Below the pieces are notes generated by a model. The model had not been told where the DNA came from, made no database searches, and saw only the letters and a list, made by a program, of their open reading frames with translations. Below, one piece after another: positions 1,722 to 51,545 of a stretch of DNA of 57,734 nucleotides. Each line of letters starts with the position of its first letter. The first letter of the stretch is position 1. Made by a program: the position numbers and the translations under genes. This DNA comes from a virus, in IMG/VR virus record IMGVR_UViG_3300030107_006967, positions 1 to 57,734 of that record, one strand, 5' to 3'.

Positions 1722-3590
1722 TTACTTAATTTCGCAAGCACCGCCAGCACAGGCGAGTTCCCCTGAGAGGTCTGTATTATCTTCTATCTCTACGACCTTT
1801 GTGAGGTCTACTTTTTCCAATGTGTTCAACATAGCCTCGTAGGTCTCTTTAGAGCAATCTTCGAATGGCGCTTGCTTGTAGGTTCCGCCGTCATGAGGAA
1901 GAACTGACAAGCCGTTATAAACATCTCTATTTTCCCACATCCACTCACCAACATCAGCCCATTCTGCATCCTTGATAGAAATGGTGGCGGATACATTATG
2001 TGTGTTTTGACCATTTCTGGTTCCCGGCTTAACCCACTCGCCACTAATCTTAGCTACTCTTTTTAACAGAGACAAGGCGCTCTCTGTTCTCATAATAGCG
2101 CCTTCGGGGGCTTTTTGTGGGACAGAAATCACTGCTGTGTCGTGCGGTCTAAAGTATTCATCCTCAACCATATCTGGATGGAAGATGGAGAGATAGGAGT
2201 AGATTGCCTCATTTTTACCAACGCGGAGGCGACGAATATAATAATCATTATGCCAAGCATGAATGCCACTAGAGGTTCCTACGGTCAAAGATGTCGTTCC
2301 CGCTGGTTTAACTGTGGTTGTTCTGGCAGCTTTTTTTATTCCGATGAGCTTGGCTACTCTTTCATTCTCCATCTTAACAACTTTACAAGCCTCACTTGTA
2401 TCAAGTGTAAGAATCTTTCCCGATGCTATCCCGGTCATACTTACACCAATAAGTGCCTCCCTCTCTGTTGTTCTTCTCCATATATCCCGAAGATAGTGAA
2501 AATCTGTATAACCAGCTTGAAGCGTACCAATAAGCGCTGCTGCCTTAACGCGACTATTTAACTCTCCCTGACTTTCCACATCGCTCACATTCACCTCTGT
2601 CAGATTGCAAAACTGGTATGGGCGGAGGGCGATTTCGCAGCAAGGGTTGGTCCCCCAGTCTTTATCATTAGAAAAATAAAAACCGGGCTCTCCGCTACCG
2701 GATTCTTTCACTCTCTCCCAAAGATCTTGGAAGTATTCTTTCGTAATGCGGTGTCGAAGGAGCACAACAGAATTGTTAGCTCTACCTCTCTGTGGGGCTG
2801 TCTCCCACCAGTTGCCTGTCTTTGCGGCGATCATTTCATTATCGTCTGCTGAAAATAAAGATATTAGTGCGGCTCTGCGGATGCCACCTGCCAAAACTGC
2901 ATCTGCGATGTGACAGATCATATCGTGGGCTTCAATAGTGGATAGCTTGTCTCCATTTTCTTTTGCTTCAAACATACCCTGCAATTTAACCAAGCACTCT
3001 TTTAGTGGCTGTGGTCCGGGGGCTTTTCCGCCAGATGTAACAAGGCGGGAGCCCTTGGGTCTAATGTCGGAGTAGTCAAATCTTAACTTTGAACCACCCT
3101 TAAAGTAAGACTGGACGAGAGCCTTTACAGCATCTGCCCACCCCTCTATCGAATCATTTACTAAAAATCGGCGAGTTCTTTTGGATGCTGGTTTTTGAAT
3201 CTCTGGTAGCTTTTCTACGTGGTGCTTTTGCACACTATAGCCTACCCCCGTACCCCCCAGCAGCAAAAACATAATCTCACTAAATACTCGCCAATCATCA
3301 ATTGGCGCAAAGGCGCAGTTGTAAATGCGATTGGGTGCCACCTCGATGGGCTTACCCCCAAACTGCATTGAGCGCATAGATGGTAATACTTTTTTTTCAT
3401 AAACCATCTTGTAAGCACTATAAATTTCCTCTTTTAATTCTGGATATTTTTTAACGTGCATAGCCCTATTTCTATTCACGATTTCTTTCCAAGTTTCTCT
3501 TCGCTCCTTCTTAGGGAGATAACGTGCGTATTTCATATGCACGGTGATATCTGACAAAATGTCTCTCGCTACCTTATCCTTATCTGTCAT
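1722..3590 (-). CDS. nrdJ: Class II adenosylcobalamin-dependent ribonucleotide reductase, monomeric type
   Basis: Converts ribonucleotides to deoxyribonucleotides with a B12-generated thiyl radical, needing no NrdB subunit. I choose the ATG at 3590 (622 residues) because AAAGGGG lies 8 bases upstream; an upstream in-frame ATG at 3620 has none and overlaps the helicase gene. In this numbering C92 (IYNCAF) and C328 (QFCNL) form the active-site redox pair; N315, C317 and E319 in NPCCEI are the radical Cys, Asn and Glu. The spacing of 11 between C317 and C328 equals that in Lactobacillus RTPR (C408, C419). The C-terminal CAGGAC is the re-reducing Cys pair. TVKPAGTTSL is the phosphate-binding loop. 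Separated by 13 bases from dnaB. Confidence 0.92.
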   Translation of the reverse strand: MTDKDKVARDILSDITVHMKYARYLPKKERRETWKEIVNRNRAMHVKKYPELKEEIYSAYKMVYEKKVLPSMRSMQFGGKPIEVAPNRIYNCAFAPIDDWRVFSEIMFLLLGGTGVGYSVQKHHVEKLPEIQKPASKRTRRFLVNDSIEGWADAVKALVQSYFKGGSKLRFDYSDIRPKGSRLVTSGGKAPGPQPLKECLVKLQGMFEAKENGDKLSTIEAHDMICHIADAVLAGGIRRAALISLFSADDNEMIAAKTGNWWETAPQRGRANNSVVLLRHRITKEYFQDLWERVKESGSGEPGFYFSNDKDWGTNPCCEIALRPYQFCNLTEVNVSDVESQGELNSRVKAAALIGTLQAGYTDFHYLRDIWRRTTEREALIGVSMTGIASGKILTLDTSEACKVVKMENERVAKLIGIKKAARTTTVKPAGTTSLTVGTSSGIHAWHNDYYIRRLRVGKNEAIYSYLSIFHPDMVEDEYFRPHDTAVISVPQKAPEGAIMRTESALSLLKRVAKISGEWVKPGTRNGQNTHNVSATISIKDAEWADVGEWMWENRDVYNGLSVLPHDGGTYKQAPFEDCSKETYEAMLNTLEKVDLTKVVEIEDNTDLSGELACAGGACEIK

Positions 3591-3603: not shown

Positions 3604-4956
3604 TTATTTCTTAAATTCATTGTATATTTTATTTATTTTTTCAGATTGAACTTTGGAATCTGGTTTTTGCACGTCGTCCAACTCACTCTCTAAAACCTCC
3701 AAACTGATATTTGAAGTATCCATTCGAATCGGAAATGGTATTCCGTCTTTGCCGTTTCTGTTTTTAGCTACAAAAAACCTACCTGTGTTGTTCTTCTTAT
3801 CGGTTATGGTACGAGATAAGGAGAAAATAAAGTCAGCCACAAAGCATTTGCTGAACGCCTCTGAAATTGACTCCATCGTAATTAATTCTGCATTAAGACC
3901 AGAACGATTTGTTTGAGATGCAGTCCAGACTGGGCATTCAAATATTTGAGCAATCGCTCTCAGTTCTTCATATATCGACTCCAGATCATGTCTCTTTTCG
4001 CTGCCACGAGGGGCAGATACTGGTTTTAGCAAATCCCCGTAATCAACTATGATCATATCGATTGGAACACCCTGTTGTTTAAGTTTGTCCAAATGCGCTC
4101 GTATGGTATTTGTACTAGCGGATTTCGTTGGATACTCTTTAATTATAACATTCCCATCAATATCTTTAACCTTTTCATAAATTTGTTCCTTAAGAGAAAA
4201 CAAATCCTGTAGCTGTACCCCAGTTAGACAACTGTCATATCTTTGACCGATTGTTGTATGACACAACTCCAAAGTGTAATGAATCACATTTAATCCTGCT
4301 TTTACCGCTTGTGCCCCAAGATGTACCAAAACCATAGATTTACCAGCCCCAGTTGGAGCAATGACAACACCAAGCTCTCCACTTCCCAAGCCTCCTTTGC
4401 AGATATCGTCAACCCTTTCCCACCCAGTCGAGACCGGGTTTCTGGCTCTTAAGACATACCTGTCTTCAAAATCTTTTTTGTAATCATATCCGTAATTGCT
4501 ATCTGCGCCCAACTTAAGGGCGTCATTAATTACTGTGCTGATTTCGTCAAAAGATGAATTGTTCAAAAGTTTTACCGATTTCATCATCGCTTCTTTTAGC
4601 TTTTGCTTCTTACAAAAGTCTAAGGAAGTTTCCCTGACATAATCCGCATCCCTAATTATCTCGACATCGGTTATAGACCTCTTAAAATATTCAACAACCT
4701 GTTCTTTAACAGCGCTGTCATCATCGGATATGTCAGATTTTATCAATGATCCCACAGCCTTCAGCGATGGATGGGCATCATATTTTTTTTTGTAATCATA
4801 AATTTTAGAAACTAAAACCTGTAGATATTTTAGCTCCAAGAAAGATATGTCTAGAACTTCTCCTATCTGATCGCAAAAAGGTCTTTCCGTTATAATCAGA
4901 TAAGCCAACTTTTCTTGAAAGTCTTTCCCATATTTTGAAAAACTTGCCTGCTCCAT
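3604..4956 (-). CDS. dnaB: Replicative DNA helicase, DnaB/gp41 family
   Basis: 450 residues. An N-terminal helical domain (1-150) precedes a RecA-like motor. Walker A is APTGAGKS at 200-207, followed by the DnaB-type HYTLEL segment; Walker B is MIIVDYGDLL near residue 295; the ASQTNR segment near 340 and FFVAKNRNGKDG near 400 match helicase motifs H3 and H4 with the arginine finger region. It should unwind the fork 5' to 3' as a hexamer with the primase at 51.9 kb. The ATG overlaps the exonuclease stop as TAATG, so translation is coupled. Confidence 0.9.
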   Translation of the reverse strand: MEQASFSKYGKDFQEKLAYLIITERPFCDQIGEVLDISFLELKYLQVLVSKIYDYKKKYDAHPSLKAVGSLIKSDISDDDSAVKEQVVEYFKRSITDVEIIRDADYVRETSLDFCKKQKLKEAMMKSVKLLNNSSFDEISTVINDALKLGADSNYGYDYKKDFEDRYVLRARNPVSTGWERVDDICKGGLGSGELGVVIAPTGAGKSMVLVHLGAQAVKAGLNVIHYTLELCHTTIGQRYDSCLTGVQLQDLFSLKEQIYEKVKDIDGNVIIKEYPTKSASTNTIRAHLDKLKQQGVPIDMIIVDYGDLLKPVSAPRGSEKRHDLESIYEELRAIAQIFECPVWTASQTNRSGLNAELITMESISEAFSKCFVADFIFSLSRTITDKKNNTGRFFVAKNRNGKDGIPFPIRMDTSNISLEVLESELDDVQKPDSKVQSEKINKIYNEFKK

Positions 4957-5927
4957 TAATTACCTTCCTTACTCTGCACTACCATTTTTCGAAACTGAGC
5001 AAATAAATCGGCTAAGTCATACGCGCCGAAACCATCAATCATCATCATAGTTTGGACACCCGTCTTGTTAAACATTAGCTTCGGGTCTCTTAACATACCC
5101 CTAATATACTGTGCGCTTTGGGCTGAGATATTGGGGGCATACAACTGCATCATCTTGTAGTTCTTTTCAATCAGTTCTCTTTTTTCTACCGTGTTCTTGA
5201 AGACTTTGAGTTTGCTATCAACACCCTCGGCATACTCAACTAGTTCTTGTATGGTGTATGATTTTTCCTCAGAAAGAAAAGGAAATCGCTTAGATACAGT
5301 CGCCAAACCCGCTCCGCCGATGCCGGGAAGGTTGTCACTCTTGTCACCTGCGATTGCTCTAGCAAGTGCGAAGTTTGTTGGATGAATCTCAAACTGCTCT
5401 AGAATTCTTTTCTTGTTAAGAATCTCTTTTTGGATTGGTCTATAAAGAATAGTTGAGTCGTCACATAGTTGGATAAAGTCTTTGTCTGAGCTTAGGATAA
5501 TTTTGTGATATTCGGACAGGGCTTGAGACTGAGAAACTAGAGCGATAATATCATCAGCCTCCACATTCTCAACATAGGATTGCATGATAGGCATCTCATT
5601 AAGATACTCAATGAGTCTTTCCTGTTGCCAGTTCTTGTTGTCTTCTTGTTCGCCAGCAGTCATATTGTGGATGTCTCTGTTAAGGCGAACAGGCTTACGA
5701 CCAGCCTTGTAGTTCTTGTCTATAGACTTGCGCTTTTGGGAGCCGCCATCCCAAGCAACAAAGATTAGATCTGGATTAATAGTTCTGCAAACAGATTGTA
5801 GTGATTTGATAAAGCCTTTGGTGCCCCCGATGGGTTGACCATTTGTAGACAAGCTGGGGTCTACAATATAGTTTCTCATAAAAAGATTAAGTGCGTCAAT
5901 AAGTAATACTCTTTTTTTACTCGTCAT
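4956..5927 (-). CDS. 5'-3' exonuclease / flap endonuclease (Pol I N-domain, T4 RNase H family)
   Basis: 323 residues. Metal-binding Asp residues appear in the family order: LLIDALN near residue 11, VAWDGG near 58, EADDIIAL near 123, SSDKDF near 147 and GDKSDNLPGIGG (H3TH loop) near 193. The arch region carries KSIDKNYKAGRK. This enzyme removes RNA primers and flaps on the lagging strand, a job not supplied by the family A polymerase of this phage, which has no such domain. Its first 11 bases overlap the preceding small gene. Confidence 0.9.
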   Translation of the reverse strand: MTSKKRVLLIDALNLFMRNYIVDPSLSTNGQPIGGTKGFIKSLQSVCRTINPDLIFVAWDGGSQKRKSIDKNYKAGRKPVRLNRDIHNMTAGEQEDNKNWQQERLIEYLNEMPIMQSYVENVEADDIIALVSQSQALSEYHKIILSSDKDFIQLCDDSTILYRPIQKEILNKKRILEQFEIHPTNFALARAIAGDKSDNLPGIGGAGLATVSKRFPFLSEEKSYTIQELVEYAEGVDSKLKVFKNTVEKRELIEKNYKMMQLYAPNISAQSAQYIRGMLRDPKLMFNKTGVQTMMMIDGFGAYDLADLFAQFRKMVVQSKEGN

Positions 5928-6124: not shown

Positions 6125-6165
6125 AAAAAAGGAAAAGCCCCACTGACTATAAAGTAAGTGGGGCT
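6125..6165 (-). terminator. Intrinsic terminator containing a promoter -10 box in its loop
   Basis: AGCCCCACT (6165-6157) pairs perfectly with AGTGGGGCT (6144-6136) and is followed by TTTTCCTTTTTT. The 12-base loop (6156-6145) contains TATAGT, the -10 of the promoter listed next. It ends transcription of the lipoprotein gene. Confidence 0.8.
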
Positions 6166-6174
6166 AAAAGTCAA
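6146..6174 (-). promoter_or_regulatory. Sigma70-type promoter nested in terminator
   Basis: TTGACT at 6174-6169, 17-base spacer occupied by the left arm of the terminator stem, TATAGT at 6151-6146 in the loop. Preceded by AGTTC and an A/T tract identical in layout to the element at 49810-49838. Start of transcription would fall in the right arm, so the new RNA cannot form the terminator. Confidence 0.7.
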
Positions 6175-46279: not shown

Positions 46280-49200
46280 TTATTGGTTTACACAAGCAAA
46301 TCCATTTACTTTATCAATCTCGATTGTCATATCGGCAATATCTTTAAGGTGATCTACGTGTGAGATAAGTAAAACAGTTTGGTAATATGACTTTATCATA
46401 TCCAATATTCGAATAAAGCCCTCCATATTTTCGGCATCTAGGGCTGTTGCTGGCTCATCTAGGATGAAAACTGAGCCTTTTGGCAAGGAAGACACCGAAA
46501 GAAGTGCGAGGCGAATTGCCATGGCAGCAATAGTCTTCTCCGCTCCCGAGCCCATCTCAATTGGTCTTGCTTCATATTTTGGGTGCTTGATATAAACATC
46601 CAACTTGTTGCCCTCGCTCTCGAAAAAAACTTCAAAATCAACTACATTAGCCAACACTTTGCTTATTTCATCATTGATTACGGGCAACTTTTTCTTAATA
46701 ACATCAAGCGAGATACCATTAGTGTGCATACATCGCATAAACAAATCATAAGCAGCAAAATTATCACGCAAAGCTTCCATTTCCGCCTTTTGTGCGATGA
46801 GATTTTCTAATCTCTGCTCTAGAGACCCGCGCTCTTTAATTAAGACAACAATTTCTTTATTGCAATCGCCCAAAACACTCTGCTGACCTTTGAGGTTATT
46901 TTGTTGCTCTACCTTTTGGGAAAGGAGTTGTTCCAAATTTTCAATAGCTTCACGATTTTCTTCATATTCTTCTATTTTCACCTGTAGCTTTTCTATCTCA
47001 AGATTCAAAACGGATACATTACTCTCGTTCTTCTCAATAACAAGCTCATTTTGGTTGATAGTATTATAAATATCATCACGCATTTCTAATACTTCTTCGT
47101 ATTTATCTATTTTCTTGTCTATCAACTTGGGATTTAAACTTTGTATATCCTCATACAGGGTTTCAGACTCTTCACGAAGCTCTCTGATGTTTTTTTCAAT
47201 AACAGTTACATTACCTTGAGCCTTGTAAGCGTCTTTAATAAACTTACAAGACCTGTATTCATTTCCACATGGCACCTCAAGAAGAAGTTTAACTTTATTC
47301 TTGTTTTGAGTTAGTCGATATTCCTGTTGTTCGATAGAATGGTTTGTTGCCTTTAAAAGAACTTGATTATCTTCTATTTCATTCCTATGGCTTCGAAGAG
47401 CTTCAATATCAAAGCTATCCAAAACCTGACTTATTTTCTTGTGATCTATTCTTTTTGACCGATTCTCTTCTTTCAGAAATTTTATTTGTTCAACCAAATT
47501 ACCAACTTCGTTGTTTTTTGTAATTTGTTCCTCTTTTACCTCAACAATATTTATAATCTCTGTGGGTATTGAATCTATTTTCCCGATGATTTCGGAAATA
47601 ATTGTTTCGGTTTTTTCGATTGCAGAAGAGTATTTCCTGCATCTATTCTCTTGTTTTCTCTTTGCGGTAGTGTTTTCTTCAAGCGATTGTTTGACATTTT
47701 CGATGTCGGTATCATATTCTTTACCCTCTAGTAGTTTTAATGCACCCTTCATATCAGAGGCATCTTCTTTGGCTTTCTTAAATTTCTTGTCGAAGATTTC
47801 TAGGTCAAGGAATTTTCCTAGTATTTCTTTGCGTTTAGTTGATCCTTCGTTGATAAAAGATAGGCTATCAACCTGAGAAGCCATCGAAGTAAGTAGGAAG
47901 TCTTCGACTGTTCCGAACATTTTTCTTATGTTTTTGTCAGTTCCGTTTCGGCTATCGCCGTTCAGTTCGTTTTCTTCCTGCATAACGTTGTCGTAGCAAG
48001 AGAAGTTGAGGTCTGTTTTAGCCTCTAAAGTTTCAGTCCCCTTGAGTTTCTTCAAATACTTGTAGGAACTTCTTTCAATGGTATAGTCTCGATCACCGAT
48101 TCTGATCTCAAGCCTACCCTTCCCCTCTTCTTTATTTTGGTTAATAACATTGAGGTTCTTTCTCTCATTCTTGCTTGTGGAGTTGAATAGGGTATAGAGC
48201 AAGGCATCAATGATTGAGGACTTTCCTGAATAGTTCTTCCCGAAAATACCGACAATCCCGTGGAGCCTCTCAAAGTTAACCCTGTTGTTTTCCCCATAGT
48301 TAAAGAGATTGTCCCACTCAAAAGATTTAAGGGACCAGTTAACATTTCTGGATACCTCTTCCTCTTCTTCAGCCATCGTATTGTACTTTCGGTTAAGAGA
48401 AAATACTTTTTCAAGAGTCTCTGGTGTGGCTTCATAGTCCTTGAGATACTCGTCGATGAGTTCTTCTTGGACTTTGGGATCTCGCAGATCTTCAATGTTA
48501 ATGCCGTCAGTCAGGTCTTGAACGGACCCCCGCTCTCCACTAGACCTGTTGAGAAAGGTTACACTCTCAGGCTTAAATCTACCCTTAGCAATGTCTAAGG
48601 CTCTCCGCATAACATCAAGTGGTAGGTTGTTCTGGGATACTAGGCGTAACCGAGCACCATTTGGAACCTCTAGGTTCTTAGGCATCTTGCCCTTTGGCGT
48701 CAACTCAATAGTAACAAAGGGCTTGGGATTGGCGAGTGGGTAGTGTTCGCAGGTAAAATTTTCTTTACCTTTAATGTCCCAAAGTAAAAATCCCTTGTCT
48801 TCGCTCTCACCAAAATTCTGTTGCACCAGAGACCCCGGATACGCTACTTTGCCTTTTTCATCAAGCCGCTGGTATGTCTTGTGGATATCTCCCAACAAAG
48901 CATAGTCAAAAGGGGCGAAATTCTTAATGTCTATATCCCCATGTTCCATAACCCAACCAGTATCAGTTGTGACACCAGCGACAGATCCGTGGAAGAGGGC
49001 AATATTTACCTTACTTTCGTCTGTTGGGTCTATCCATTTGTCCTCATCAATAATAGAAAGGACGTTGAGGACAAAGCCATTGCCCAAGTCTACTTCCTGC
49101 GAGAACTTATGAAAGTGAATATTTTTGTGGTCTAGTGCCTCAACAATAGGAGTTACAGCGTCAATTTTGCCCGGATTGCGAAGGTTTAGGTCGTGGTTCC

Positions 49201-49432
49201 CAAGTATAACGTGTAAAGGCGCTATGTCTGCTAAGTTCTCAAAAAACTTGGCAGTCATATGAAAATATGCAGGACTTAGCTGCAATTTGGTATGTGCTGT
49301 GTCGCCCGTGTTCACAATAATGTCTGGTTTAAGTTCTCGTAGTTTTTCATAGAGATCCTCAAATACAGCCTTGTACTCTTCATGATACCTATGGTTCCTG
49401 ATATGAACGTCTGAAATGTGTGCAATTTTCAT
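46280..49432 (-). CDS. Fused SbcD-SbcC (Mre11-Rad50; T4 gp47-gp46) nuclease-ATPase
   Basis: 1050 residues. N-terminal Mre11/SbcD phosphoesterase: ISDVHIR (D8, H10), VNTGD (40-44), LGNHD (77-81), FHGS, LLGDIH. A linker (300-365) leads into a Rad50/SbcC ATPase: Walker A GKNYSGKSSIID from 398, coiled coils from about 570 to 880, a zinc-hook-like turn PCGNEYRSCKF (C722, C729; six residues between Cys, not two), signature MGSGAEKTIAAMAIRLALL and Walker B VFILDEPATALD. In T4 and bacteria these are two genes. Role: end resection and recombination with UvsX. ATGA overlap with upstream gene. Confidence 0.92.
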   Translation of the reverse strand: MKIAHISDVHIRNHRYHEEYKAVFEDLYEKLRELKPDIIVNTGDTAHTKLQLSPAYFHMTAKFFENLADIAPLHVILGNHDLNLRNPGKIDAVTPIVEALDHKNIHFHKFSQEVDLGNGFVLNVLSIIDEDKWIDPTDESKVNIALFHGSVAGVTTDTGWVMEHGDIDIKNFAPFDYALLGDIHKTYQRLDEKGKVAYPGSLVQQNFGESEDKGFLLWDIKGKENFTCEHYPLANPKPFVTIELTPKGKMPKNLEVPNGARLRLVSQNNLPLDVMRRALDIAKGRFKPESVTFLNRSSGERGSVQDLTDGINIEDLRDPKVQEELIDEYLKDYEATPETLEKVFSLNRKYNTMAEEEEEVSRNVNWSLKSFEWDNLFNYGENNRVNFERLHGIVGIFGKNYSGKSSIIDALLYTLFNSTSKNERKNLNVINQNKEEGKGRLEIRIGDRDYTIERSSYKYLKKLKGTETLEAKTDLNFSCYDNVMQEENELNGDSRNGTDKNIRKMFGTVEDFLLTSMASQVDSLSFINEGSTKRKEILGKFLDLEIFDKKFKKAKEDASDMKGALKLLEGKEYDTDIENVKQSLEENTTAKRKQENRCRKYSSAIEKTETIISEIIGKIDSIPTEIINIVEVKEEQITKNNEVGNLVEQIKFLKEENRSKRIDHKKISQVLDSFDIEALRSHRNEIEDNQVLLKATNHSIEQQEYRLTQNKNKVKLLLEVPCGNEYRSCKFIKDAYKAQGNVTVIEKNIRELREESETLYEDIQSLNPKLIDKKIDKYEEVLEMRDDIYNTINQNELVIEKNESNVSVLNLEIEKLQVKIEEYEENREAIENLEQLLSQKVEQQNNLKGQQSVLGDCNKEIVVLIKERGSLEQRLENLIAQKAEMEALRDNFAAYDLFMRCMHTNGISLDVIKKKLPVINDEISKVLANVVDFEVFFESEGNKLDVYIKHPKYEARPIEMGSGAEKTIAAMAIRLALLSVSSLPKGSVFILDEPATALDAENMEGFIRILDMIKSYYQTVLLISHVDHLKDIADMTIEIDKVNGFACVNQ

Positions 49433-49680
49433 TTCGCCTTCCTTACTAATTCTAGCTCTTCATTCCACACGGGCATCGGATGTGATGCCCCTGCTGGTAT
49501 TACCATATAATAATACTTGTTCCAATCGTGATTGGCACCTTGTACTTTTCCCTTTACTTCTGATATCACTCCAAGCATTTGCAGTGAGTTCTTGATCAAC
49601 ACTAGATCTCCGACCTCAAAGGACTTATAACTTCTAACCACTTTATCGGCATCGGATCTGCCTTGTTGTTTGATACCCAT
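49429..49680 (-). CDS. Small SH3-like protein
   Basis: 83 residues. A basic leader (GIKQQGRSDADKVVRSYKS) precedes a beta-barrel pattern VGDLVLIKNSLQMLGVISEV, NKYYYMVIPAG, PVWNEELELV. AGAGGT before ATG. Its first 111 bases overlap the preceding gene in another frame. The barrel pattern is shared with the preceding protein, suggesting duplication. Function unknown. Confidence 0.65.
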   Translation of the reverse strand: MGIKQQGRSDADKVVRSYKSFEVGDLVLIKNSLQMLGVISEVKGKVQGANHDWNKYYYMVIPAGASHPMPVWNEELELVRKAK

Positions 49681-49790
49681 GTTACCTCTGCCACTCCTAA
49701 CTCTTCGCTCATGTCCGTAACAATACCCAAAGGCGAATTATTTGGTAAGCCTATGGGCGTTTTATAGTATACTAAATCACCGATCTTCAT
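49602..49790 (-). CDS. Small SH3-like protein
   Basis: 62 residues from the ATG at 49790 (MKIGDLVYYKTPIG); the open frame extends into the terminator upstream but that part reads as non-coding. Pattern IGDLVYYK, LGIVTDMSEELGVAEVTWV, IKWLEVISP is an SH3-like barrel and parallels the next gene. It is the first gene after the nested terminator/promoter, with a predicted leader of only about 14 bases and no clear Shine-Dalgarno. Confidence 0.6.
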   Translation of the reverse strand: MKIGDLVYYKTPIGLPNNSPLGIVTDMSEELGVAEVTWVSNNKADPMPIKWLEVISPLRSEI

Positions 49791-49792
49791 AA

Positions 49793-49827
49793 TAAAAAAG
49801 CACCCTTGCATTTTAACAAGGGTGCTT
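49793..49827 (-). terminator. Intrinsic terminator containing a promoter -10 box in its loop
   Basis: AAGCACCCTTG pairs with CAAGGGTGCTT (11 bp) and runs on into T's. The loop (49816-49809) is TTAAAATG, which contains the TAAAAT of the promoter listed next. Starts 20 bases after the large lipoprotein stop codon. Confidence 0.85.
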
Positions 49828-49838
49828 AATAAAGTCAA
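49810..49838 (-). promoter_or_regulatory. Sigma70-type promoter nested in terminator
   Basis: TTGACT at 49838-49833, 17-base spacer formed by the left stem arm, TAAAAT at 49815-49810 in the loop. The upstream sequence AAAAAAAGTTC is shared with the element at 6146-6174. Confidence 0.7.
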
Positions 49839-49847
49839 GAACTTTTT

Positions 49848-51545
49848 TTATTTTTGGAGTTTAGGATAAATGCCTGAGCGCAGATCTACATCTCCAAAAA
49901 GAATAACGCGATTATCTCCAGTAGAAACTCTAACTGAACTTTTAACGCGATTGCCATTTACCCTAGTGGAAACCTTCTGATACTGGTTTACATCTAAGGG
50001 AATAGAAGTGACTCTTGTCTCAGCTAGGGGTGTGACCTCTTCCGTGGTGCATTTACCATCGTAGTTTGTGTCTGCCCACACATAAAGATTTCCGAATCCT
50101 TTGTCTTTTACACTAACTACTCCATCTTTGTTTGTGTCCATAGTAGCTAGATGGGCGAATCCTCCCGAAAACTCTGGTGAGGTTCCAAAGAACTCTGTTC
50201 CGTCGTCGGCAATACCATTAGAGTTTTTATCAACAAAGAGGAATCCATCTCCACTAAGCCAACTAACCGCCGTGGTTCGTTTGCCAAACATAGAAAAGTT
50301 AACCCCATTCTCTACAGATGTGATATCAAAGCGTCCATTATTGTTTAAATCAATAATAATGGGGTCTGACACATTGCAAGGCACAACTTTAAAGATCTTT
50401 ACAGCAGCCAAAGCAAACTCATCTGCAATTCCTACCTGAAGCGCATTACTATAATCGCTTTGTGCCTGTGCAAACATAATCTCATCATCGCTGCTAGTTG
50501 GAACATAGTCATCACAAAGTGGATTCTGTTCCATAGCTTGACTGATAGTGTTCATTGCTTCGTTAAAAACTGGGTCTAGCAAGGACTCATTAGCCTGACA
50601 AACTTCGATAGGGTCTGACATAATTGGATAATCTGCTGAATAACCATTTGTGGCGAGCCAATTATTCATAGAGTTAATAAAATGTTGCCGACCAACTACC
50701 TGTCCTTTTTCCTCAGAACTTTTAACAGGAGAAGGGTTCACGTTACAAAGCTGTTTTGCTTTTAGGTCCACACGCACAAGCACACGAGCTTCCTCCAAAC
50801 CGCTGACAGCACCTTGTTCGAACCAAAAATCTTCTTCGCTAAGATCCGGATCATAACTTTCTCGGTTAGCTTTAAGAGTTCCGTAGAGTTTAGAATATGC
50901 CTCCGAACGGGCTTTGTCTACGAGATATTCGCATGCATAACCAGTCATAACAGCTTGATTATTATAAAACTCTACATAAGGACAATCCGATACCTCTGGT
51001 AGATCACTGCTTTCGTCTAGGATCTGATAACCGTTATCAATCCCAAAGCCTTCCAGTGCCAATGAGACTTGAGCCAAATAAAGTTCCTTGCCGACATCAA
51101 GACCCCCAAAAATATTGTCTCGCAAGATTTCAATTTCAGCAAGATCTTCTGCCGTCAAGTCCTCTAGGCTAACTTCGTCTTCAACCGGATCTACTTCGGT
51201 TGTCTCCTCCTCGATTGGCTGCTCTTCAGCAGGGTCAGCCTCTACGGGATCCGAAGGATCAGACCCCTGTTCGGGGGTCGTCTCCTCGGTTTCCGTTGGA
51301 ACCGTGTTGGTTTCATTGTTTTCATCTACTTCAGTAGGCTCAACTGTCCCAGTGTTTTCTGGGGTGGTTGTGGTCTCGTCCGTAGTAGTTGTGGTGGTGG
51401 TAGTAGTGGTAGTTCCACTATTATCATCAGCACCAATGAAGGTTGTACCTTTAGTGTTTTCAGTTGTCTCGGTTGCTGTTTCAGTTGTATCTTCACAGGC
51501 AATCAAGGCAAATGCCAACATTACTCCAATAATAAAGTTTCTCAT
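49848..51545 (-). CDS. Large lipoprotein with Thr-rich stalk and calcium-binding-type repeats
   Basis: 565 residues. Lipobox LIAC (Cys17). Residues 18-140 are a Thr/Glu/Pro-rich stalk with a run of eleven Thr. Residues 140-370 are a globular helical part with six or more Cys. The C-terminal 180 residues carry DxNxxG-type loops: DLNNNGRFD, DKNSNGIADDG, DTNKDGVVSVKD and DTNYDGKC, as in Ca-binding surface proteins. A phage gene for a large exposed lipoprotein suggests modification of the infected cell surface (for example blocking superinfection) but this is inference. AAAGGAG before ATG. Confidence 0.75.
   Translation of the reverse strand: MRNFIIGVMLAFALIACEDTTETATETTENTKGTTFIGADDNSGTTTTTTTTTTTDETTTTPENTGTVEPTEVDENNETNTVPTETEETTPEQGSDPSDPVEADPAEEQPIEEETTEVDPVEDEVSLEDLTAEDLAEIEILRDNIFGGLDVGKELYLAQVSLALEGFGIDNGYQILDESSDLPEVSDCPYVEFYNNQAVMTGYACEYLVDKARSEAYSKLYGTLKANRESYDPDLSEEDFWFEQGAVSGLEEARVLVRVDLKAKQLCNVNPSPVKSSEEKGQVVGRQHFINSMNNWLATNGYSADYPIMSDPIEVCQANESLLDPVFNEAMNTISQAMEQNPLCDDYVPTSSDDEIMFAQAQSDYSNALQVGIADEFALAAVKIFKVVPCNVSDPIIIDLNNNGRFDITSVENGVNFSMFGKRTTAVSWLSGDGFLFVDKNSNGIADDGTEFFGTSPEFSGGFAHLATMDTNKDGVVSVKDKGFGNLYVWADTNYDGKCTTEEVTPLAETRVTSIPLDVNQYQKVSTRVNGNRVKSSVRVSTGDNRVILFGDVDLRSGIYPKLQK

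Follow-up and report, generated by a model that had tools for sequence, protein, structure and literature searches.

Nested within a terminator-like hairpin of an uncultured T4-like phage contig, we found a promoter whose layout suggests that the composite probably acts as a compact transcriptional insulator-and-restart of the PeSL (promoter-early stem-loop) type, ending one early unit and starting the next. This contig, a 57,734-base virus record that was analyzed whole and is called the window here, carries portal, major head, terminase, DnaB-like helicase and ribonucleotide reductase families. The element, termed site 2, was located on the minus strand at 49838-49794 by direct reading and a scan, and consists of the following parts:

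49855-49843, minus: A-tract before the -35, overlapping the stop codon of the upstream gene
49833..49838, minus: -35 hexamer TTGACT (direct reading, scan)
49817..49827, minus: stem 5′ arm AAGCACCCTTG, within the 17-nt spacer, covarying with the 3′ arm
49816-49809, minus: loop TTAAAATG, 8 nt, containing the full -10
49810..49815, minus: -10 hexamer TAAAAT, entirely in the hairpin loop
49798..49808, minus: stem 3′ arm CAAGGGTGCTT (fold and covariation)
49794..49799, minus: T-run (U-tract) of six T's, completing an intrinsic-terminator-like site

An earlier note on this DNA had described TTGACT-17-TAAAAT with its -10 wholly inside the 8-base loop of an 11-bp terminator; that reading was confirmed for a terminator-like hairpin, and the strand, which the note had not given, is minus. 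As judged from sequence, the promoter matches 10 of 12 consensus positions and combines a 17-nt spacer with the A-tract; TAAAAT and TTGACT each depart from consensus at one position and are weaker than the TATAAT boxes of distant copies. The hairpin (49827-49798) forms 11 bp in an RNA fold of -20.4 kcal/mol (z -6.6), and a GC-rich hairpin with a U-tract, the hallmark of intrinsic terminators, is thus present at site 2. No T-run was found on the opposite side of this hairpin, making the terminator-like site one-directional. The RNA fragment beginning at the predicted nested start, within the 3′ arm, scored -3.5 (z 0.2) and had no such fold.

Intrinsic termination needs a hairpin followed by a U-tract, and transcription starts 6-8 nt past the -10. 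Promoter boxes, geometry, stem covariation, recurrence and the cassette border were all read from the sequence. In the model that we propose, for which we infer promoter activity, termination, start point and timing, transcription arriving from the upstream lipoprotein gene would yield the full hairpin and U-tract and terminate, and host sigma70-type RNA polymerase would read TTGACT-17-TAAAAT in the same DNA. Spacing to the -10 places the predicted start of the nested RNA at ~49804-49802 (~6-8 nt past the -10). This RNA would lack the 5′ arm because the predicted start falls inside the 3′ arm; unable to form the hairpin, it would continue into the small genes and the SbcCD-like gene. The element would insulate and restart because incoming RNA carries both arms and the U-tract, and nested RNA cannot pair. 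An intergenic stretch of ~50 bp would in this way close one early unit and open the next, with its 3′ edge serving as a border for gene cassette gain and loss. The logic, in which the same bases would be a promoter as DNA and a terminator as RNA, is testable and would make a compact insulator design.

The genes flanking site 2 are:

49848..51545, minus: upstream lipoprotein-like gene, 565 aa, N-terminus MRNFIIGVMLAFALIAC (lipobox judged by eye)
49602..49790, minus: first gene past site 2, 62 aa, MKIGDLVYYK... (orthologues 53-72% identical)
49429..49680, minus: second small gene, 83 aa, overlapping the first (ORF reading)
46280..49432, minus: fusion of an SbcD-like phosphoesterase and an SbcC-like ATPase, 1050 aa (Pfam, phrog_77)

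The ATG of the 62-aa ORF lies 3 nt past the T-run, and a search for its Shine-Dalgarno sequence gave no clear match, only GGUG in the 3′ arm. Pfam and PHROG searches returned no match for the 83-aa gene. Close to their starts, both overlapping ORFs (49429-49790, minus) carry a [VI]GDLV motif, which may reflect an old duplication. The SbcCD-like fusion comprises Pfam Metallophos (residues 1-184) and SMC_N/AAA_23 (from 368) and belongs to phrog_77; its domains are fused in the window versus separate genes 47 and 46 in RB49, and Microcystis phage Mel-JY01 provided a full-length match at 30%.

A second nested element, site 1, occupies the other end of the window:

6136..6174, minus: site 1 element (direct reading, fold)
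6174-6169, minus: -35 TTGACT, 17 nt before the -10
6165-6136, minus: stem AGCCCCACT/AGTGGGGCT, then a T-run (sequence and fold)
6151-6146, minus: -10 TATAGT, in the 12-nt loop of a 9-bp stem
4956..5927, minus: 5′-3′ exonuclease (FEN-like) served by site 1 (Pfam 5_3_exonuc_N)

Geometry is alike at the two sites and the stems are unrelated. As previously noted, the sites share sequence: the 57.7 kb contain exactly two copies of the 13-mer AGTTCTTGACTTT, on the minus strand at 49843-49831 and 6179-6167. Its context (an A-tract, then g-t-n-c before TTGAC) also appears at hairpin-less promoters in the window and in relatives, and we therefore regard the shared 13-mer as general early-promoter context. 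Also borne out were the placement of both sites behind lipoprotein-like genes, since the ORF upstream of site 1 (79 aa, MKKIIIISFLAAFASGC...) resembles a lipoprotein by inspection, as does that upstream of site 2, and the presence downstream of replication and recombination genes, namely the SbcD+SbcC-like protein, the 5′-3′ exonuclease and a DnaB-like helicase. None of the window's four other strong terminator-like hairpins (30111, 26825, 18858 and 7610, all minus) holds a promoter in its loop, and an Rfam search of the window matched no known RNA family. With fixed thresholds, the two nested elements observed compare with a mean of 0.003 in 300 whole-window dinucleotide shuffles and 0.007 in 300 local shuffles (120-nt blocks); no shuffle of either kind reached two. 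Promoter-like matches alone were no commoner than in shuffles.

We then compared site 2 across relatives, using an ungapped alignment of seven sequences including the window, a small sample of related sequences. SbcCD homology alone retrieved the close relatives L004-L007, which include the upstream region, and all four carry the nested element; a stem pattern scan yielded L173 and L179, and lipoprotein homology also led to L191, which is the L173 contig. All seven orthologues retain TTGAC[T/A], the 17-nt spacer, a -10 (TA...T) and the T-run. Changes on both sides occurred at 4 of 13 stem pairs, and 97.8% of alignment cells still pair, as against 34-64% when partners were slid as a control. 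These data support the view that, where the site 2 stem is kept, it is maintained by pairing rather than by sequence. The earlier note had claimed a stem kept by structure and had proposed looking for compensatory stem changes with the -35 and -10 retained; at site 2 both expectations held, with the hexamers retained in seven of seven orthologues.

The window and L004 align through the entire element; homology breaks exactly at its 3′ edge and resumes at the 62-aa ORF. The intervening insert in L004 (~471 bp) holds a 155-aa ORF with the motif GGFDPMHVGH, nucleotidyltransferase-like by that motif. The corresponding gene between the element and the 62-aa ORF lies at:

L004 5179-5646, plus: nucleotidyltransferase-like gene
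L005 5204-5656, plus: nucleotidyltransferase-like gene
L007 5179-5646, plus: nucleotidyltransferase-like gene

The cassette is present in these three relatives, each with its own AGGAG outside the hairpin, and absent from the window and L006. By protein closeness the window is nearest L004, and L006 nearest L007; because cassette presence disagrees with this closeness, the cassette was gained or lost more than once. Site 2 thus lies at a border of gene gain, loss or exchange, a PeSL feature, and elements of this kind may serve as markers for gene cassette exchange sites.

At site 1 the two halves come apart. Of the 25 close uvsX-FEN junction orthologues, the window included, 4 are nested (the window, L192, L085 and, weakly, L194); the other 21 show a promoter and no terminator hairpin. 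On the FEN tree the nested state requires six changes over all 55 rows. In L215 a lipoprotein gene ends 6 nt before the -35, yet no terminator hairpin is found there, and the lipoprotein homologues L188 and L189, where SbcCD is not next, have a plain terminator behind them, one that encloses no promoter. Most of the distant nested copies sit at the uvsX-FEN junction, directly after uvsX. The promoter travels with the downstream operon, and the hairpin is gained and lost. A lipoprotein link as a general rule was rejected on the evidence of L215, L188/L189 and the distant copies after uvsX. Of the earlier proposal of a deliberate switch module, the nested unit itself stands, on covariation and shuffles; an obligatory module tied to lipoprotein genes does not, given the separable halves, L215 and L188/L189, and no sequence feature here shows regulated switching. 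The note had taken separation of hairpin and hexamers in related phages as grounds for refutation: separation was found at site 1, in the 21 promoter-only orthologues, and both halves are kept at site 2.

To gauge how widespread the design is, we took 71 distinct strong terminator-like hairpins in relatives: where TTGAC[AT] lay within 70 nt, it fell 21-28 nt before the loop centre in 14 of 17 cases, an interval 8 nt wide. A relaxed fold-based scan of homology-fetched loci gave ~20 clear nested copies, nearly all with a 17-nt spacer. Viral contigs were further scanned for TTGACWT, CCTCC, GGAGG and TTTT, with the -10 not required. This pattern, which by construction selects GGAGG in the 3′ arm and so biases stem sequence, matched 54 contigs; a -10-like box stood at exactly 17 nt in 46 of them, as TATAAT in 28. 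Homologues of the window's uvsX and/or FEN occur in 38 of the 46 (table count), and where the flank was readable the element adjoins uvsX or a small gene beside it. The start codon usually lies 5-9 nt past the GGAGG arm, a spacing that was not selected for. In bacterial genomes, a strong fold with a -10 at 17 nt was seen in 5 among the 80 matches listed for the same pattern; the design is therefore not phage-exclusive, as comparable cases occur there. The promoter/terminator/GGAGG/ATG layout was noticed in a few bacterial contigs (L394 3478, L387, L433, L432, L435 and L455; Oscillospiraceae, Clostridia and others).

Nested promoters were also seen 54-65 bp before SbcCD-like genes in L052 (5940), L047 (324) and L073 (1448), all on the plus strand; their hairpins have GGAG(G) in the 3′ arm and no T-run and are perhaps purely translational. 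Where promoters had a ribosome site nearby, CTCC, the anti-Shine-Dalgarno sequence, exceeded GGAG in the spacer (10 vs 3 of 82), a modest enrichment. We tentatively raise the possibility, which we hold to be somewhat less than even, of a widespread ~55-bp T4-like phage element in which the same bases are promoter, terminator and, in many copies, ribosome site. Were this so, the gene would be expressed only from locally begun RNA, with read-through terminated and any escaping transcripts untranslatable, and site 2 would count among its copies, with weak function as a ribosome site.

Several other explanations of the nested layout were weighed. A translational role, in which read-through RNA hides the next gene's ribosome site in the hairpin and nested RNA exposes it, has a precedent in T4 e, soc, 49 and I-TevI (PMC3014915), and is in keeping with the GGAGG arm found 5-9 nt before the start codon in many relatives and with the T-run-free hairpins upstream of SbcCD in L052, L047 and L073. 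The site 2 arm, however, offers only GGUG, the site 1 ribosome site AGGAG lies beyond the hairpin, and the cassette of L004, L005 and L007 uses an AGGAG of its own outside it, so that we consider this role unlikely as the explanation. We judge it distinctly unlikely that the dyad is instead a DNA operator, bound over the -10 by a regulator (a MerR-like or repressor site) with an incidental T-run. A dyad centred on the -10 is a natural repressor position, and in RB49 and phi1 T-run-free dyads cover or precede the -10; yet an operator would keep its sequence, whereas here sequence varies, pairing stays and the stems of the two sites are unrelated, and the T-run is present in all seven site 2 orthologues. 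A strand-asymmetry comparison meant to tell an RNA hairpin from a DNA dyad, in which selection on RNA would favor G-T over A-C in the stems, gave 67 vs 54 (p = 0.28), no significant excess either way.

Mere adjacency in a compact genome, with an ordinary terminator and promoter overlapping in an unselected geometry, would account for promoters standing alone at site 1, for terminators standing alone after the L188/L189 lipoproteins, and for the mostly tandem U-tract terminators that precede promoters in RB49. It is nevertheless very improbable in our estimation, since 46 of the 54 contigs from the scan that set no -10 criterion repeat the exact 17-nt, -10-in-loop register, which survives complete stem replacement. 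Chance overlap without function has in its favor that promoter-like matches alone are as common in shuffled sequence; it is contradicted by shuffles, covariation, conservation and recurrence, was rejected by the shuffle test (2 vs 0.003-0.007), and seems next to impossible. The insulator-and-restart reading faces its own difficulty in the 21 close orthologues that are promoter-only, from which the hairpin looks dispensable at site 1.

Among known systems the closest are the PeSLs of the T4-type phages RB49, phi1, PST and nt-1, in which a sigma70-like early promoter is fused with a stem-loop (background in PMC4503421 and PMC3950731); in RB49 and phi1, gene cassettes are claimed to change at the element (PMC4503421). 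Site 2 likewise has a stem-loop overlapping its promoter. Whereas PeSLs are many alike copies in hypervariable regions, the window, itself incomplete, has two copies with unrelated stems beside core replication and recombination genes, 13 bp being common at the -35 side, rather than many similar recombining copies; the longer relatives G002 and G003 have one nested copy each. On its layout we regard the element as a PeSL variant, having the structural and cassette-border features and lacking the many similar copies. PeSL cassettes in T4-type phages were reportedly described by Arbiol et al. 2010 and Comeau et al. 2014.

Our scans identified early-type promoters that place the -10 in a hairpin loop and lack a T-run in RB49 (12), phi1 (13) and Aeh1 (5), and a hairpin within the -35/-10 spacer at 7 early promoters in RB49 and 9 in phi1; we take this promoter/stem-loop material to be PeSL. 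Spacer hairpins in RB49 (L163-L165) and phi1 (L269-L276) are of a GGGGATC...GATCCCC type. Unlike most nested RB49 copies, which have no T-run, site 2 has one, and in RB49 the usual tandem order is a U-tract terminator and then the promoter. RB49 3201 (minus) has TTGACA-16-TATAAT nested in a hairpin loop closed by a 13-bp stem, and a T-run; phi1 has the same element at 3202 (minus) and a second at 113776 (minus), between alt and ORF183. Scans of Mel-JY01, S-PM2, KVP40, nt-1 and SPO1 revealed no convincing nested terminator.

In T4 e, soc, 49 and I-TevI, a late promoter lies at a hairpin in which the ribosome site of read-through RNA is masked (PMC3014915). As there, locally started RNA would lack the 5′ arm of an inhibitory hairpin; where those genes combine a translation block with a late promoter, site 2 combines a terminator-like hairpin with a host-type early promoter. 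A sequestered Shine-Dalgarno or start codon is found neither at site 2 (GGUG) nor at site 1 and is found in many distant relatives. Our scan also uncovered, independently of any publication, a similar arrangement upstream of T4 alc (AF158101, 136335, minus): TTTACA-17-TATAGT in a predicted fold of 16 pairs whose 3′ arm contains GAGG, differing from site 2 in its T4-type -35 and its lack of a strong T-run.

A similarity search of named phages with the element found one real kin group, Staphylococcus 6ec/Twillingate; Klebsiella matches, covering only 24 nt of the query, were dismissed. The Staphylococcus phages Twillingate, 6ec and phiIPLA-RODI (kayvirus) share the nested layout of site 2, having TTGACA-17-TACAAT or TATACT with the -10 in the loop, then a T-run and an ATG, directly after phoH (L462 701-767, L463 701-767, L502), with hairpins ending in GGGAGG or GGAGG; unlike site 2, these copies belong to unrelated phages of Gram-positive hosts, and their 3′ arm doubles as ribosome site. 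Promoter/stem-loop cassettes, known from a few Straboviridae phages, thus extend to uncultured T4-like and unrelated phages in a tightly nested form, with a fixed 17-nt geometry, at conserved core-gene junctions and cassette borders.
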